NCBI GenBank assembly: GCA_025774865.1
Contig: JALGZO010000464.1
Coordinates: 1-10,169 of the forward strand
DNA length: 10,169 bases
Direction of reading: 5' to 3'
From: a bacterium
GTDB taxonomy: Bacteria > ARS69
Both the position numbers and the translations under genes were made by a program. This document shows positions 2,560 to 9,515 of the stretch, in pieces; position 1 is the stretch's first letter, and each line of letters opens with the position of its first letter. The notes below the pieces were generated by a model. It was not told the DNA's origin, made no database searches, and was given only the letters and a program-made list of their open reading frames with translations.

Positions 2560-2588
2560 TTGACAAGCCGCGCCGCGGCCGGAAGAAT
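2560..2588 (+). promoter_or_regulatory. sigma70-like promoter of sodN
   Basis: TTGACA (2560-2565, perfect), a 17-base spacer, then AAGAAT (2583-2588, 4 of 6). Transcription would begin near 2595, giving a leader of about 28 bases that contains the ribosome site. I see no obvious nickel- or iron-regulator operator around it. The rest of the 289-base gap towards the methyltransferase (about 2391-2559) shows nothing I can support. Confidence 0.55.
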
Positions 2589-2610: not shown

Positions 2611-2616
2611 GGAGGA
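2611..2616 (+). promoter_or_regulatory. Ribosome binding site that fixes the sodN start
   Basis: GGAGGA stands 6 bases before the GTG at 2623. The same frame is open back to 2320 and includes an upstream ATG, but only the GTG has a ribosome site and places a clean signal peptide at the N-terminus. Confidence 0.8.
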
Positions 2617-2622
2617 ACCACC

Positions 2623-3075
2623 GTGAACACGAATCGAATCTGCATCGTCGTCGCGCTCACTCTGACCGTCGGGGCGGGCGCCGCCTTCGCCCACTGCCAG
2701 GTTCCCTGCGGCATCTACGACGACCCGGCGCGCGTCGCCCAACTCAGTGAGGACGCCGCGACGATCACGAAGTCGATCCAGAAGATCCAGGAGCTTTCGA
2801 GCAAGCACGATCCGCAGGCGTTCAACCAGGCCGCGCGTTGGGTCGCGACGAAGGACGCGCACGCTTCGAACATCATCGAAACCGTGTCGAAGTACTTTCT
2901 GACACAAAAGGTGAAGCCAGTCGCGGCCGGGGCCGAGGGCCACGACGCCTACCTGGAGACGCTTGCCGCCTGTCACGCGGTCATGGTGGCCGCCATGAAG
3001 ACGAAGCAGAAGTGCGACGCGAACGCAGCGAAGGCGCTCGACGCCGCGATCGCCGCTCTGGACGAGCGCTGGTAG
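2623..3075 (+). CDS. sodN: Nickel superoxide dismutase with a Sec signal peptide
   Basis: This 150-residue protein would disproportionate superoxide to oxygen and hydrogen peroxide. Residues 1-23 are a clear Sec signal peptide: short basic start, Val/Ala/Leu core, and AFA at the cut. Cleavage after Ala23 leaves HCQVPCGIY as the mature N-terminus. That is the Ni-hook of the family (HCDLPCGVY in Streptomyces), with nickel ligands His1, Cys2 and Cys6, plus Tyr9. The usual Asp3 is Gln here. The 127-residue remainder is helix-rich, has the family-like stretch 'FNQAARWVATKDAHA' and 'SKYFLTQKV', and is close to the known ~117-residue mature length. Known SodN proteins expose His1 by removal of a short leader by SodX. 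Here signal peptidase could do it, making the enzyme periplasmic or secreted. No sodX-like peptidase gene is in the window. The gene stands alone on the plus strand with its own promoter and converges on the RND pump gene 57 bases away. Family identification is strong; export is inferred. Confidence 0.93.
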   Translation: MNTNRICIVVALTLTVGAGAAFAHCQVPCGIYDDPARVAQLSEDAATITKSIQKIQELSSKHDPQAFNQAARWVATKDAHASNIIETVSKYFLTQKVKPVAAGAEGHDAYLETLAACHAVMVAAMKTKQKCDANAAKALDAAIAALDERW

Positions 3076-3132: not shown

Positions 3133-6100
3133 TCACGAAGCCGCCTCCTCCTCGAGCGTCGGCCGCCGATAGAGCCCGATCACCCATTCCCGGACCCGGT
3201 GCAGATCGTCGAGAATCAGGTAGGAGACCGGCACCAGGATCATGATGACGAACGTGGCGAAGAGCACGCCGAACCCGAGCGAGACGGCGAGCGGCTTCAG
3301 AAACTGCGCCTGGAGGCTCCGTTCGAGGAGCAGCGGCGACACGCCGGCGAACGTCGTGAGCGACGTGAGGAGGATGGCCCGGAAACGGACGACTCCCGAC
3401 ACCCGAGCCGCCTGAAGCAGCGGCATGCCCTCGCGGCGCGCGCGATTCACGAAATCCACCATCACGAGACTGTCGTTCACCACGACGCCTGACAGCGCGA
3501 CGAAGCCCGCCATGGACAGCATCGTCAGGTTCATGCCGATGATCAGGTGACCCCACACCGCTCCGACGAACCCGAACGGAATCGCCGACATGATGATGAG
3601 CGGCTGCGTGTAGGACCGAAGCGGCACCCCGAGCAACGCGAAGATCACGAACACCGCCACGAGGAGGCCGCGCCGCAACGAGGCGAGGGTGTCGCTCTGT
3701 TGGCGCTGCTCACCTTCGAGCGAGAAGCCGACGCTGGGGTGATCGTCGAGGATCCGCGGCAGATCGACCCCGGTGACGGCCGCGAGGATCTCGTTCGCGT
3801 TGCCGACGTCGAGATCCACGTCCGCCGTGACATTGATGACGCGCTGACGATCCGCTCGTCGGATCGTGGAGAATCCCTTGTCGAAGCTCGCCGTCGCGAC
3901 CGACGAGAACGGCACTTCGACTCCTCCGGAGGCCCGGATCCGCATCGTTTCGAGATCGCCGAGCGACTTCCGGCGCTCCTCCGGGAACCGGACCATGACT
4001 TTGATGTCGTCGCGGCCGCGCTGAACGCGTTGAGCCTCCTCGCCGTAGAACGCCTGCCGGACTTGGCGCGCGAGATCCGAGAGCGTGATACCCAGCGCTT
4101 CCGCCTCCGGCTTCAGGCCGAGCTCGACCTCGTCCTTCCCGGAGCGGAACGAGTCGGTGATGTCGAAGACGCCGGGATAGGCGCTCAGTGCATGCTTCAA
4201 GCGCTCGGCCACGGCCGCGAGGGCGTCGAGATCGTTGGACGCGAGCTGCACGTTGATCGGTTCCCCGCTGGTGAACAGCGCGGACGTGAATACGAGCTCG
4301 ACCGCGCCCGGCACGGGACCCACGAGCTCCCGCCAGCGCCGCGCGATCCCAAACGCGTCGAGGTCCATCTCCTCCATGGGGGCGAGCTCGATGTTCACTT
4401 CGCCCACGTGCTCACCGGACGAGCTCGGCCCTCCCCCGATCGGACCACGACGCTGCCGATTGCTGTACGGCTGCTCGCCGACGGACGCGAGCACGTGGCG
4501 AAAAGCCCCCTCGCCATGTTCCTCCTCGACTTCCCGGCGAAGCTGCTTCGCCGCGTCCTCCATCCGCTGCACGGCCGCGGCCGTGACTTCCCGGGGCGTG
4601 CCGAGCGGCATCGTCACGAGCGCGACGACGTCGTCCCCTCGAACTTGCGGGAAGAACGTGAACTTGATCCAGCCACCTGCGACCACGCCAACCGTGATGA
4701 GCAGGGTCGAGATCCCGATGGCGAGAGCGACGTAGCGCCAGCGCAGAGCAAGATCGAGTGCGCGCTCGTAGACGTTATGGATGAACCACTTGAGACCGCG
4801 ATCGAAGTTCCCCTGGAACCTCGGCCACACTGACCGCCACCCCGTGACGCGCGGATCGCGGAGCTTCACCCTCGACAAGTGCGCCGGGAGAATGAACAGC
4901 GACTCGAAGAGCGAGAACAGCAGCACCGGAATGACGATCATCGGAATGACTCGCCAGATCTGTCCCATCATGCCGGGCAGAAAGAGTAGCGGGCTGAACG
5001 CCGTCACCGTGGTGAGAATCCCGAAGACCACCGGCGTCTTGACGCGGAGCGCCCCCGCGGTGGCGGCGTCCACCCCCGACCTCTTCTGCTCCATGTAGTG
5101 GAAGATGCTTTCACCCACGACGATCGCGTCGTCGACCGCGAGCCCGAGCACCACGATGAATGCGAACAGCGAGATCAGGTTGATCGACACTCCGAGCGTC
5201 GGCAGGAGCCAGAGCGCGCCGAGAAACGAGATCGGGATGCCCAGGGAAACCCAGAACGCGAGGCGAAGCTTGAGGAACAGAGCCAGGATCGTGACGACCA
5301 GGATGAATCCCAGCGTCCCGTTGCGGAGGAGTAGATCCATACGGCTCTTGAGAACCGCGGAATTGTCGTTCCAGGTCGTGAGCGCAATACCCGTAGGCAG
5401 CTCCCGGCCGGCGCTCTCGACGTATTCTTTGATGCGCCGCGCCACGTCGAGCGCCCGCTGCTCTCCCACGCGGTACACCTGCACCATCACGGCGGGTCGT
5501 TCGTCGAAGCGCGCTTCCTGTCCCGTGTCCTCGAAACCGTCGACGACTCTGGCGACGTCGCCGATCGTGAGCCGAGATCCGTCGGGAAGCGTGCGGACGA
5601 CGATCTCCTCGAATTCGCGCCCGCGGTACGCCTGGCCCACCGTACGGAGTAGCACCTCGCCGCCCCGCGTCTTCACCGAGCCGCCAGGAAGATCCAGCGA
5701 GGACCTGCGCACCGCGGCGGCCACCTCGTCGAACGTGAGACCGTACCGGCGAAGCGCGTTCTCGGAGACCTCCACCGCGATTTCGTAGGGACGGGCCACC
5801 ACGACCTCGGCGTGCGTGATTCCTGGGAGGCCGGTGATCTCGTCGCGCACTCGCTCGGCGAGTGACTTGAGAGCCGCTTCGTCTGCGTTGCCGGATACCA
5901 CCACGTCGATCACCTGGCGCTTGCGCACCACTTCCTGGATGACGGGCTTCTCTGATTCGTCGGGGAACGTGTCGATCGCGTCGACGATCGACTTGATCTC
6001 ATCGAGAACCTCGCTCGCGTTCTCGCCGCGCATGAGCTCGGCGGATACGCTTCCCACTCCCTCGTTCGCCGTGGACGTGATCCGGTCGACACCCTCGACG

Positions 6101-6321
6101 CCCTGGATCTCCTCCTCGATCCGGATGCATATGCCTTCCTCCACTTCCTCCGGCGTGGACCCGGGATAGCGCACGGTGACCGTGATCATCTCCGGACGGA
6201 TCTCGGGGAACACTTCCTGCGTGATTCCGGGAATCGTCAGGAGACCACCGACGACGATGAGCATCATCGCGAGGTTCGCGGCGACGTGATTCTGGGCGAA
6301 CCAGCCGACCCAGCTCGTCAC
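3133..6321 (-). CDS. RND efflux pump, inner-membrane permease (AcrB/HAE1-like)
   Basis: This 1062-residue proton-driven pump is a normal full length for the family. The order is TM1 (~14-32), a first porter/docking region (~40-330), TM2-6 (~335-480), TM7 (~530-550), a second porter region (~555-875), and TM8-12 (~880-1038). TM4 has 'GLAVDDAIVVGE' with the proton-relay pair Asp397-Asp398, which fits HAE1-type organic-compound pumps rather than the metal-ion (HME) class. TM10 reads 'LSGVVVNDSLVMVDF', so the AcrB Lys940-Asn941 pair is replaced by Asn949-Asp950. 'FRAILLTSLTTF' (980-991) keeps the conserved Arg and Thr of TM11. The start is GTG (6321-6319) in a GTGA overlap with the adaptor stop, with GGGAGG 7 bases before it. 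It is the last gene of the efflux operon. Substrates are not predictable; drugs, lipids or fatty acids are all possible. Confidence 0.95.
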   Translation of the reverse strand: MTSWVGWFAQNHVAANLAMMLIVVGGLLTIPGITQEVFPEIRPEMITVTVRYPGSTPEEVEEGICIRIEEEIQGVEGVDRITSTANEGVGSVSAELMRGENASEVLDEIKSIVDAIDTFPDESEKPVIQEVVRKRQVIDVVVSGNADEAALKSLAERVRDEITGLPGITHAEVVVARPYEIAVEVSENALRRYGLTFDEVAAAVRRSSLDLPGGSVKTRGGEVLLRTVGQAYRGREFEEIVVRTLPDGSRLTIGDVARVVDGFEDTGQEARFDERPAVMVQVYRVGEQRALDVARRIKEYVESAGRELPTGIALTTWNDNSAVLKSRMDLLLRNGTLGFILVVTILALFLKLRLAFWVSLGIPISFLGALWLLPTLGVSINLISLFAFIVVLGLAVDDAIVVGESIFHYMEQKRSGVDAATAGALRVKTPVVFGILTTVTAFSPLLFLPGMMGQIWRVIPMIVIPVLLFSLFESLFILPAHLSRVKLRDPRVTGWRSVWPRFQGNFDRGLKWFIHNVYERALDLALRWRYVALAIGISTLLITVGVVAGGWIKFTFFPQVRGDDVVALVTMPLGTPREVTAAAVQRMEDAAKQLRREVEEEHGEGAFRHVLASVGEQPYSNRQRRGPIGGGPSSSGEHVGEVNIELAPMEEMDLDAFGIARRWRELVGPVPGAVELVFTSALFTSGEPINVQLASNDLDALAAVAERLKHALSAYPGVFDITDSFRSGKDEVELGLKPEAEALGITLSDLARQVRQAFYGEEAQRVQRGRDDIKVMVRFPEERRKSLGDLETMRIRASGGVEVPFSSVATASFDKGFSTIRRADRQRVINVTADVDLDVGNANEILAAVTGVDLPRILDDHPSVGFSLEGEQRQQSDTLASLRRGLLVAVFVIFALLGVPLRSYTQPLIIMSAIPFGFVGAVWGHLIIGMNLTMLSMAGFVALSGVVVNDSLVMVDFVNRARREGMPLLQAARVSGVVRFRAILLTSLTTFAGVSPLLLERSLQAQFLKPLAVSLGFGVLFATFVIMILVPVSYLILDDLHRVREWVIGLYRRPTLEEEAAS

Positions 6322-7508
6322 GGCGACGCCTCCCGACTCTCCTGGGCGACGCGCACCGGCATGCCGTCGACGGCGAGCTCGAGGGGCGACACGCAGACGC
6401 GTTCACCTTCCTCGAGACCGTCACGGATCACGACCTCTTCGCCGTGGATCCGGAGGACGTCGACGTCGCGGAAGCGAAGCTGGTCCTCGTCGTCCACGAC
6501 AAAGATCCGGTTCAGACCGCGGAGTACGGCGCGCGGCAAGACGAACACGTCGGGCACGAGACGACCGACGATGTCGGCCTCGACGAACAGACCGACGGCC
6601 AGGGGCGGACCGTCGCGGTCCGCGCTGCGACCGTAGGGGTCCTCCACGCGAGCCACCGCGTGGACCATGCGCATGCGGGGGTCGATCTCGGCCTCGGTCC
6701 TCACGATGCGACCCTCCCACTCCCAGAGCCGTCCGCCGAACTCGGCACGCAACGAAACGCCCGGTTCCTTCCGGGGGCGGTCGGAGCGGAAGTCGAGAGG
6801 GAGATCCAGGAACGCGATCTCGTCCCGGGGAATCGGCAACCGAATCTCCGCTGCGTCGACGGCGTAGACACGAGCGATCGGGGCGCCGGGCGTCACGTAC
6901 CGCCCGACGTCCACTGATTTCGTCCGCACGCGACCCGTGTACGGCGCGACGATCTCCGTACGCTCGAGATCGAGCCGAGCCTTCTCGAGCTCCGCCTCGG
7001 CCGAGGCGAGCGCCGCCGTGGCCTCCGCGAGCTGTGGTTCGCGCAAGACCAAGGGGTCCGGATCGCCGGTTCCCAGTGCCTCCCAGTCCCGGCGCGCGAT
7101 CTTCGCTTCGCCCTCCTCCCGGGCGAGAAGGACTTCGTGCTGCGCCACGCGGGCCTTGGCCCGCGTCACCGCGACGCGGTAGTCGCGCGGGTCGATCTTC
7201 GCGAGCACTTCGCCTTTCTCGAAGAATCCGCCCGATACGAGCGTCGGCGAGACCTCGACGATTTCTCCCGCCACCTGCGAGACGAGCTGCGTTTCCGTGC
7301 GCGCGGTCACCTCACCGTGTGAGGAGACGTCGAGCCGCGCATCCTGCCGGGTGGCCGAGAGCACTTCGACGAGCGGGGGCGGCGCGACGCGACGCTGCCG
7401 TTCCGGCGTTCGCCGCGTCTTCACGAGGGCGACGAGGATCACGACGCCGAAGGCGATCACCAACAGCGGAAGGCCGATCTGCAGCGCGAGCCGACGCTTC
7501 GGGTTCAC
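6318..7508 (-). CDS. RND efflux periplasmic adaptor (membrane fusion protein, HlyD/AcrA type)
   Basis: This 396-residue adaptor bridges the RND pump and the outer-membrane channel. Residues ~8-29 are a single N-terminal membrane anchor after a basic start (no lipobox). A split lipoyl/barrel-sandwich domain follows: 'ETQLVSQVAGEIVEV' plus 'GEVLAKIDPRDY' (~72-110) on one side, and 'TEIVAPYTGRVRTKSVDVGRYV' compressed over ~184-205 on the other. The helical hairpin between them (~110-182) is Ala/Glu/Arg-rich with the look of a coiled coil. A beta-barrel region (~216-315) and a membrane-proximal domain (~320-388) complete the family architecture. The start is GTG (7508-7506), overlapping the outer-membrane-factor stop as GTGA. 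GAGGAG lies 8 bases upstream, so this gene has its own ribosome site even though the gene before it is broken. It overlaps the pump gene in the same way at 6318-6321. Confidence 0.93.
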   Translation of the reverse strand: MNPKRRLALQIGLPLLVIAFGVVILVALVKTRRTPERQRRVAPPPLVEVLSATRQDARLDVSSHGEVTARTETQLVSQVAGEIVEVSPTLVSGGFFEKGEVLAKIDPRDYRVAVTRAKARVAQHEVLLAREEGEAKIARRDWEALGTGDPDPLVLREPQLAEATAALASAEAELEKARLDLERTEIVAPYTGRVRTKSVDVGRYVTPGAPIARVYAVDAAEIRLPIPRDEIAFLDLPLDFRSDRPRKEPGVSLRAEFGGRLWEWEGRIVRTEAEIDPRMRMVHAVARVEDPYGRSADRDGPPLAVGLFVEADIVGRLVPDVFVLPRAVLRGLNRIFVVDDEDQLRFRDVDVLRIHGEEVVIRDGLEEGERVCVSPLELAVDGMPVRVAQESREASP

Positions 7509-8820
7509 GATTCGTTCTCCTCGTTCTCCGGCTCGAGACCACCCCCGAGCGCCAGATGAAGATCCACTCGACCGTCGAGGCGGAGCCTTCGCACCTCGAG
7601 CAGCCTCGTCTCCGCCGTCACGGCCGAGCGCTGGGCCGCGAGCAACGTGATGACATCATCGAGGCCGGACTGGTACCGGGACTCCGCCAGCTCGTGGGCC
7701 GCCCGGGCCTGCGCGGCTGCCTCGGTGAGCACCGTCTCCTGAGCCGCGAGCGACCGCTCCGCCTCGAGCGCGATCTCGACCTCCGCACACGCGACGAGCA
7801 CCGTGCTCGCCCACGCGGCCTTGAAAGAGCGGCTGCACGAGATTGCCTACCAGGCTCCACACCGTGAAGTCGCCCTGGAGGAGGTTCCCGAGCTCTTCGG
7901 ACGTGGCCCCGCCCGCCGCGGTGAGCGAGAGGCGCGGAAGGAGCGCGCGCCGCGAGGCGCTCGTGCGCCGGTTCGCGGCGGCGAGCCGGCGCTCGGCCGC
8001 GACGAGATCCGGACGACGGACCAGCAGGTCGGCGGGTAGGCCCGCGGGAATGTCGCGGGGCGGCGGACTCAGCTCACCGACGTCCGATCAAGACCTCCAG
8101 CTGCCGGCGCGCGCGGTCGAGCAATTGCTTTCTGAGGAGCAAGAAGGATTCGGCGTTCGCGCGGTCGACGAGGGTCAGGCGAAGATCGAGCGCGGGGCGC
8201 ACACCCGCTTCGTAGCGGCTTCGCACGTTCGCCGCCGTTCGCCGGTAGCTCGCGACGGTCTCCTCGGCGAGCTCCACTTGCCGCGTCGACTCGACGACCG
8301 CGAACCACGCCTTGATCGTCTGACCCGCGAGCGAGAGGCGCGCGCCGTGATACTCGGCCGCGGCCGCCTGCAGGTCCGCCGCCGCCGCCGACTTCTGGTT
8401 TCGCAGGCGACCCCAGAGGTCGATTTCCCACGCCACGTCCAGCGACACGCCGTAGCTCGTGGAACGAAAGTCGCGTGGCGGACTGAAGATGAAGGACGCC
8501 TGTTGTTGCCGCGCGGCTCGGCCGCCGGCGCTCACTTGCGGCCAGATGTCGGCGCCCGCGATGCGCGCCAGAGCCGCGGCCGCGTCGAGGCGGGCGGCCG
8601 CCGCGACCATGTCGGGGTTCTGCAGCAGCGCTTCGCGGACGAGCGTCTCGAGTCGCTCGTCCTCGAAGGAGTCCCACCAGACGACGGGGGCCGACGCGGA
8701 ATCAGCCGCGGTCCACTCTTCCGGAATAGACGGTGTCGCGTCCGGGATCTCGACGGGCGGCGCGGATCCGCAACCGGCGACGACGAAGGTGGCCGCGAGA
8801 ACGAACGGAAGCCGCTTCAC
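7505..8820 (-). pseudogene. Outer-membrane factor lipoprotein (NodT/OprM family), disrupted by two frame changes
   Basis: Three frames must be joined to recover the protein. Part A (8820-8077, 248 residues) starts with GTG, has GGAAGG 6 bases upstream, and a lipoprotein signal with lipobox VAGC (Cys17). It covers the first outer-membrane efflux repeat, with 'YGVSLDVAWEIDLWGRLRNQ', then 'LEVLIGRR' and a stop at 8076-8074. Part B (8075-7821, 85 residues) resumes one base along with 'IPAGLPADLLVRRPDLVAAE', a family hallmark, and runs to 'NLVQPLFQ'. Part C (7822-7508, 105 residues) resumes in the third frame at 'KAAWASTVLVACAEVEIAL' and ends at TGA 7507-7505. Against OprM, about 18 residues are missing at the B/C joint, the segment after the 'PIF' strand that leads into the next helix. 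The joined length is 438 residues, shorter than the roughly 460-490 usual in the family. The gene starts in a GTGA overlap with the regulator and ends in one with the adaptor. Genuine decay or assembly error cannot be told apart here. Confidence 0.88.
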
Positions 8821-9515
8821 GATCGGCCTTCCCGCGTAATCGGCGCGCGAAATCCCGCCGCGAGGAATGCGACGAGATCCGCGGTCACGGTCTCGTCCGG
8901 CTCGTTCCCGCGCGAGCGTGCCCCGGCTGCCCGCAGAGGAGGACCGCCCACCATGACGAAAGCCATCGCCCCGATCGAGAACTTGAACCGCCACGTGATC
9001 TCGTCGGGGGTCAGCTGCGGGAGAGCTCTTTCGATCGCTTCACAGAAACGCCGTCCGAGCCGCTCGAACTGGGAGAGCAGGATCTGCTGAACCTCCTGCG
9101 ACGACCCCGAGTGCGCCCGGCCCATGAGCCGCCGGAAGTGTCGGCCGCCGGGATCCCGGACGAGCACGAGAGCCGGGACGATCAACGCCTCCAGAATCCG
9201 CTCGATGCGGGGCGTGCCGCCGGACTCGGCTTCCGCCTCCTCGAGGCGCCGGAGCCGGTCTTCATTGATGGGTTGGATGCGTCGGGCGAAGACCTCCGTG
9301 ACGAGCGCGGTCTTGGATCCGAAGTGGTAGTTGACCGCCGCGAGATTGGCGCCCGCTTCGCGCGTGATGGTGCGAAGCGACGTCGTCTCGATGCCCTTCT
9401 CCGCGAACAGTCGCTCGGAGACGTCCAGCAGGCGCTCGCGCGTGGTGGCGGGCGGGTGGGCCTTCGATGCCGCCCGGGTGCGCCGGGATGAGTGAATCGG
9501 TTCGCGCGTGGCCAC
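8817..9515 (-). CDS. TetR/AcrR-family repressor, PsrA-like, first gene of the efflux operon
   Basis: This 232-residue regulator has a basic, disordered N-terminal tail (1-24). A TetR DNA-binding domain follows at ~25-72: 'TRERLLDVSERLFAEKGIE', then the helix-turn-helix 'TSLRTITREAGANLAAVNYHFGSK'-type region at 45-68, whose recognition helix NLAAVNYHFGSK is the same as I recall for Pseudomonas PsrA. The ligand and dimer domain (~75-225) contains 'HFRRLMGRAHS', 'PDEITWRFKFSIGAMAF' and 'DLVAFLAAGFRA', also of the PsrA/TetR_C type. The start is GTG (9515-9513) with GAGGAG 5 bases upstream. Its stop overlaps the outer-membrane-factor start as GTGA. Two palindromic operators sit on its own promoter, so it probably represses itself and the whole efflux operon. 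The inducer is unknown. A long-chain acyl compound is plausible by analogy with PsrA, and pump substrates are the alternative. Confidence 0.92.
   Translation of the reverse strand: MATREPIHSSRRTRAASKAHPPATTRERLLDVSERLFAEKGIETTSLRTITREAGANLAAVNYHFGSKTALVTEVFARRIQPINEDRLRRLEEAEAESGGTPRIERILEALIVPALVLVRDPGGRHFRRLMGRAHSGSSQEVQQILLSQFERLGRRFCEAIERALPQLTPDEITWRFKFSIGAMAFVMVGGPPLRAAGARSRGNEPDETVTADLVAFLAAGFRAPITREGRS

Follow-up and report, generated by a model that had tools for sequence, protein, structure and literature searches.

A widespread class of nickel superoxide dismutases with Sec-type signal peptides, predicted to mature through export instead of SodX

The sodN gene in the stretch of DNA analysed here (the window, 10,169 bases, one entire contig, G000:C468) very probably encodes an extracytoplasmic nickel superoxide dismutase (NiSOD) that is exported by Sec, has its His1 made by signal peptidase I and binds nickel outside the cytoplasm. 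The usual description of NiSOD is of an enzyme that resides in the cytoplasm and depends on SodX. In the mechanism proposed, the precursor would cross the inner membrane unfolded via Sec, and signal peptidase I would cut between Ala23 and His24. Nickel would then be bound by the free amine of the new His1 together with Cys2 and Cys6 beyond the inner membrane, most probably in the periplasm. In that compartment superoxide would be removed by the four-helix subunits, presumably as an oligomer. Since NiSOD uses the His1 amine as a nickel ligand (PDB entries 1T6U and 1Q0D), proper nickel binding would be possible only after the leader has been removed; a Sec substrate loses its leader at the outer surface of the inner membrane, and known chemistry therefore implies that nickel would have to be met there. 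If signal peptidase I frees His1, one housekeeping protease would do the job of SodX, and maturation would be coupled to export. A counterpoint to periplasmic loading is that, until nickel is bound, the cysteines of the hook would be exposed to the oxidising conditions of the periplasm.

The gene occupies positions 2623..3075 of the forward strand and is translated into 150 amino acids from a GTG start codon to a TAG stop at 3073-3075. The start at 2623 is supported by two upstream signals on the same strand, a Shine-Dalgarno sequence, GGAGG (2611..2615, 7 nt before the GTG), and a promoter-like site, TTGACA-17-AAGAAT (2560..2588, 34 nt before the start codon). The latter came from a consensus scan and matches 10 of 12 consensus positions; 2 sites were found in the region against a shuffle mean of 0.0, which is no proof of function. 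The translated precursor reads VNTNRICIVVALTLTVGAGAAFA up to the predicted cleavage bond and HCQVPCGIYDDPAR... beyond it. It is made up of a Sec-type signal peptide of 23 residues ending TVGAGAAFA (2623..2691), a leader type common to 158 distinct relatives, and a mature NiSOD of 127 residues (2692..3072) that begins HCQVPCGIYDD and carries at its N-terminus the nickel hook H1-C2-Q3-V4-P5-C6-G7-I8-Y9 (2692-2718).

A profile search assigns the protein to the Sod_Ni family (PF09055, E 1.6e-29, 103.4 bits against a cut-off of 25), and its hook, HCQVPCGIY, conforms to HCxxPCGxY. The NCBI sodN equivalog model, TIGR02753, gives it 37.9 bits, below the cut-off of 90; all 65 aligned relatives of the window protein match this model, the best only at E 2.5e-13. 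The marks of the canonical SodN/SodX system, namely a hydrophilic leader, Asp3, a TIGR02753 score above the cut-off and a sodX gene in the genome, are all absent. The preliminary description of this DNA had reported a 23-residue leader ending AFA right before the hook, and translation together with PF09055 confirms it. The replacement of Asp3 by Gln, reported there as unusual, is real and proves typical of a whole class of relatives (99 Gln, 58 Glu and no Asp among 157).

The host is represented by a MAG of 4.7 Mb, split into 785 contigs, with a completeness of 92.65% and a contamination of 8.3%. Divergent to sodN lies an O-methyltransferase gene (likely ATG at 2333), and convergent with it an RND efflux gene. 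The latter belongs to an ordinary efflux operon that adjoins sodN on the reverse strand (3133-9515) and encodes an RND pump, a membrane-fusion protein, an outer-membrane factor with a lipoprotein signal and a TetR regulator; the OEP lipoprotein and RND pump on this contig point to an outer membrane in the host. The contig end truncates a reverse-strand gene at 1-1239, of which the beginning is present; it encodes a secreted protein bearing an FTP propeptide motif (M36-like peptidase). No RNA elements or tRNAs were found in the window. An Fe/Mn-SOD without a signal peptide is also encoded in the genome, which would fit a division of labour between cytoplasm and envelope.

Comparison of SodN proteins revealed two classes. 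The sample of 178 distinct sequences came from a scan of named genomes, with a pattern that favours [FS]AHC, and from family searches blind to the leader, in which phylum groups were named from the record of each search's centre genome. In these leader-blind searches SodN was present in 39 of 199 genomes of Planctomycetota, 38 of 240 of Verrucomicrobiota, 17 of 247 of Desulfobacterota, 4 of 229 of Gammaproteobacteria and 1 of 296 of Bacteroidota, the last being the centre genome itself. Asp3 hooks occur in 20 of the 178 sequences (the canonical class) and Gln3 or Glu3 hooks in 158 (the exported class), and leader type tracks hook type without exception. Leader hydrophobicity, taken as the best 11-residue Kyte-Doolittle mean, spans 1.55 to 3.74 for exported proteins and -0.72 to 1.39 for canonical ones, two ranges that do not overlap; the hydrophilic canonical leaders end in AxA, with Ala at -1 in 20/20. 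Mapping of leader types on a tree of aligned homologues, a check that the preliminary description had proposed, gave a single branch dividing the classes, with support of 100/100 and presence in all 200 bootstrap trees sampled; the tree was built without the leader and without the first nine residues, that is, the hook. The canonical side consists of 20 sequences from outside Actinobacteria and Cyanobacteria plus the Streptomyces sequence of 1T6U, which groups with them. By the labels of the genome records, exported SodN occurs in at least 10 phyla, including Planctomycetota, Verrucomicrobiota, Thermodesulfobacteriota, Bacteroidota, Fidelibacterota, Elusimicrobiota and Omnitrophota, as well as Aminicenantes, Krumholzibacteriota, Eiseniibacteriota, Zixibacteria, Aquificota, Fusobacteriota and others. 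Judged from these sequences, the arrangement is not peculiar to the window's genome; it belongs to a widespread class of which Gln3 or Glu3 is the mark.

Some members of the sample depart from the common pattern. Three canonical proteins (L136, L138 and L229, from two Gammaproteobacteria and a Desulfobulbus bin) have Lys for hook Gly7 (HCDIPCKIY); among exported ones, L225 has Ala7 in the hook and L150 is extended C-terminally by about 170 residues. By simple count, 33 of the 158 exported proteins carry His-rich C-terminal tails (at least 4 His in the last 25 residues), among them L023, L034, L048, L085, L126 and L208; the window protein has no such tail, for which metal gathering is a possible role. 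A bin labelled Alphaproteobacteria (L006) has a SodN and neighbours that match Phycisphaerae (L007, L009), and the label is probably wrong. In G003, of the same family as the window's genome, two SodN fragments (L003, L004) lie at contig ends and differ in their overlapping parts, which suggests two sodN copies. Phage origin or spread of exported sodN was considered and rejected, no relative being present among viral contigs; plasmid records gave one match, on the Ilyobacter polytropus megaplasmid.

The leader of the window protein follows the n-, h- and c-region pattern of a signal peptide, with Arg5, a hydrophobic core and then Ala-Phe-Ala directly before His24, and thus has the small residues at -3 and -1 that signal peptidase I recognises. 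Its hydrophobicity of 2.92 compares with the canonical maximum of 1.39. When scored with a matrix made from other exported leaders, the window and its close kin being excluded, the bond between Ala23 and His24 is the best site at 10.3 bits, with Ala18-Gly19 as runner-up at 5.95; the leaders were aligned at the His, and the matrix is hence not fully independent. With each leader left out in turn, the His bond is the best site in 121 of 155. Throughout the exported class, residue -1 is Ala in 128, Ser in 22 and Gly in 2, together 152/158, and this conservation of Sec-type leaders lends comparative support to the earlier proposal that ordinary signal peptidase makes His1. The six exceptions are L126 (Thr), L226 (Pro), L064 (Pirellulaceae) and L143, L146 and L147 (Planctomycetota). 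The last four have an additional segment between the hydrophobic signal and HC, ending ..AVVV in L064 and ..SPR, ..GPPL and ..TRAR, respectively, in the others, so that freeing His1 would take a further cut by another protease. Signal peptidase alone thus does not explain every exported member. Export by Tat was rejected, as twin-arginine start regions occur in just 6 relatives and not in the window protein.

The distribution of sodX follows the same division. As the preliminary description had stated, there is no sodX in the window, by ORF and profile searches of the contig, and the whole-genome search that it had called for, with TIGR02754, found none in the 92.65% complete genome. At a threshold of at least 40 bits, TIGR02754 detected sodX in 0 of 118 distinct exported-only genomes, the best match reaching 34.1 bits, and in 18 of 20 genomes with a canonical copy, or 19 of 20 when an adjacent 34-bit match in G097 is counted (Fisher p about 1e-20, with related genomes not independent). 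An S26-type sodX lies directly downstream of the canonical sodN in 19 of 20; in the last, G155, sodN is at a contig end. Six genomes have both classes (G020, G025, G032, G153, G222 and G244), and there sodX adjoins the canonical copy only. In one of the genome sets searched, just three genomes had a SodX-like match of at least 40 bits; these are G020, G025 and G032, in each of which a second, canonical sodN lies beside sodX. Because many of the genomes are incomplete, the lack of sodX in any one of them carries little weight; the overall pattern hangs on no single genome. Together, these comparisons support the SodX independence proposed earlier. A hidden SodX among S26-like matches of 20-34 bits was considered and rejected, since the matches that were examined proved to be LepB-like proteins or longer S26 proteins away from sodN. 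Nor did a search of the neighbouring genes for maturation or nickel-supply partners turn up a recurrent family near exported sodN beyond close kin.

The AlphaFold2 model of the window protein has four helices, with a mean pLDDT of 93.7 and about 58 in the hook. Its top fold match is Streptomyces NiSOD (1t6u; Z 14.5, rmsd 1.8 over 107 residues), and unrelated four-helix bundles match at Z 11.8 or less. Among solved structures, a profile of the exported class matches Streptomyces NiSOD alone (E 0.007), and the class therefore appears to be without a solved member. Both classes keep His1, Cys2, Pro5, Cys6, Arg39 and Lys44 (Streptomyces numbering) without variation, position 9 is Tyr or Phe, and the exported class keeps Tyr62 and the hook H-C-x-x-P-C-[GA]-x-[YF]. 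Among 157 aligned exported proteins, Gln or Glu at 3, Trp at 40 and Leu, Met or Ile at 64 occur in all, and His at 47 in 155; the equivalents in the window protein are Gln3, Trp50, His57 and Leu70. As position 64 is Lys in the Streptomyces enzyme, kinetics may differ. The window protein shares with the Streptomyces SodN/SodX system (1T6U, 1Q0D; TIGR02753, TIGR02754) the hook H-C-x-x-P-C-G-x-Y, the four-helix fold and dependence on proteolysis to expose a free His1, but differs in having a hydrophobic export signal for the hydrophilic leader, no sodX, Gln3 for Asp3, His57 for Arg47 and Leu70 for Lys64.

The protein could be exported and cut as proposed and yet be no superoxide dismutase, the hook serving as a periplasmic nickel or copper site like those of CopC or the signal-strapping proteins. 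A His that becomes N-terminal through loss of a signal peptide is a general means of binding metals outside the cytoplasm (PMC12537917), and such a role would accommodate the class-specific changes near the site (Asp3 to Gln or Glu, Lys64 to Leu or Met, Arg47 to His), the His-rich tails of 33 relatives and a TIGR02753 score far under the cut-off. It is nevertheless improbable, given that the entire hook and Tyr62 are retained on a NiSOD fold and that the crystal structure of D3A NiSOD (3g50) indicates that position 3 is not essential to that fold. The assignment as an artefact of assembly or binning, in which the contig would come from another organism and the lack of sodX in the genome would be uninformative, draws on the contig's length of 10,169 bases and the 8.3% contamination of the MAG, and is hardly credible: two more genomes from this family carry the same type of SodN, the closest sequence in the tree being L002 (99/90), and the absence of sodX extends over the 118 exported-only genomes.

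Two further explanations concern the leader. It might be removed by an unrecognised SodX-like peptidase, the enzyme remaining cytoplasmic, for canonical leaders likewise end in AxA before His and SodX is itself related to signal peptidase. This is very unlikely, since exported leaders are strongly hydrophobic and canonical ones are not, the S26-like matches in exported-only genomes stay at about 34 bits or less, with LepB-like or longer S26 proteins among those inspected, and exported sodN has no recurrent neighbour. Alternatively, the hydrophobic leader, the cleavage of which is a prediction, might stay uncut and anchor an inactive protein in the membrane; this is scarcely to be expected of a class in which a small -1 residue stands beside an invariant His1-Cys2 in 152 of 158 proteins, a feature for which a permanent anchor would have no need. 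Export with cleavage by signal peptidase I accordingly stands as the preferred reading.

That a NiSOD can have a signal peptide in front of His1 is already in print: the signal peptide of the Ni-SOD of the planctomycete Roseiconus lacunae (WP_230780104.1) served as a probe in work on signal strapping (PMC12537917, Nat Commun 2025). This signal peptide, MTRLLTATLALMFTASIASA, stands directly before His as in the window protein, and by these features the Roseiconus protein most likely belongs to the exported class. Searches with that signal peptide gave many Ni-SODs among the matches; the protein is only a probe there, not an object of study, and SodX is unmentioned in the text. The literature searched, which missed the likeliest sources (Dupont et al. 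2008, Sheng et al. 2014), yielded no account of the exported class or of its hook, nor any that connects the class with missing sodX. Algal ubiquitin-NiSOD fusions (PMC6332867) are alike in that the N-terminus may be freed without SodX, but they are eukaryotic and have ubiquitin in place of a signal peptide. Periplasmic Cu,Zn-SOD (SodC) offers an analogy as a Sec-exported SOD directed against extracytoplasmic superoxide, with an unrelated fold and metals. Cyanobacterial NiSOD has been called cytoplasmic, and the use of NiSOD has been doubted in ten cyanobacteria without sodX (PMC8346466).

The exported SodN proteins are best read as a large, barely studied branch of NiSOD that would be built for use outside the cytoplasm without a dedicated maturation protease. 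More tentatively, and at a little under an even chance, they may constitute a second, self-sufficient NiSOD branch outside the cytoplasm in many diderm phyla, which would load nickel there with neither dedicated protease nor partner gene and have ordinary signal peptidase make its metal ligand; the SodX system may be an internalised version of this arrangement, or the reverse. The idea of internalisation has its basis in a maturation protease that is a relative of signal peptidase and a leader that still ends in AxA, of which the hydrophobic core may have been lost; the two leader types offer a way to test where SodX came from. The window protein, and probably most of the exported class, would be overlooked in annotation by the TIGR02753 cut-off, and a genome with sodN and without sodX need not be counted as devoid of active NiSOD when its copy belongs to this class. 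Should the exported class be active, it would represent a nickel enzyme assembled outside the cytoplasm, under conditions that differ in nickel supply, in competition with copper and in the redox state of the hook cysteines.
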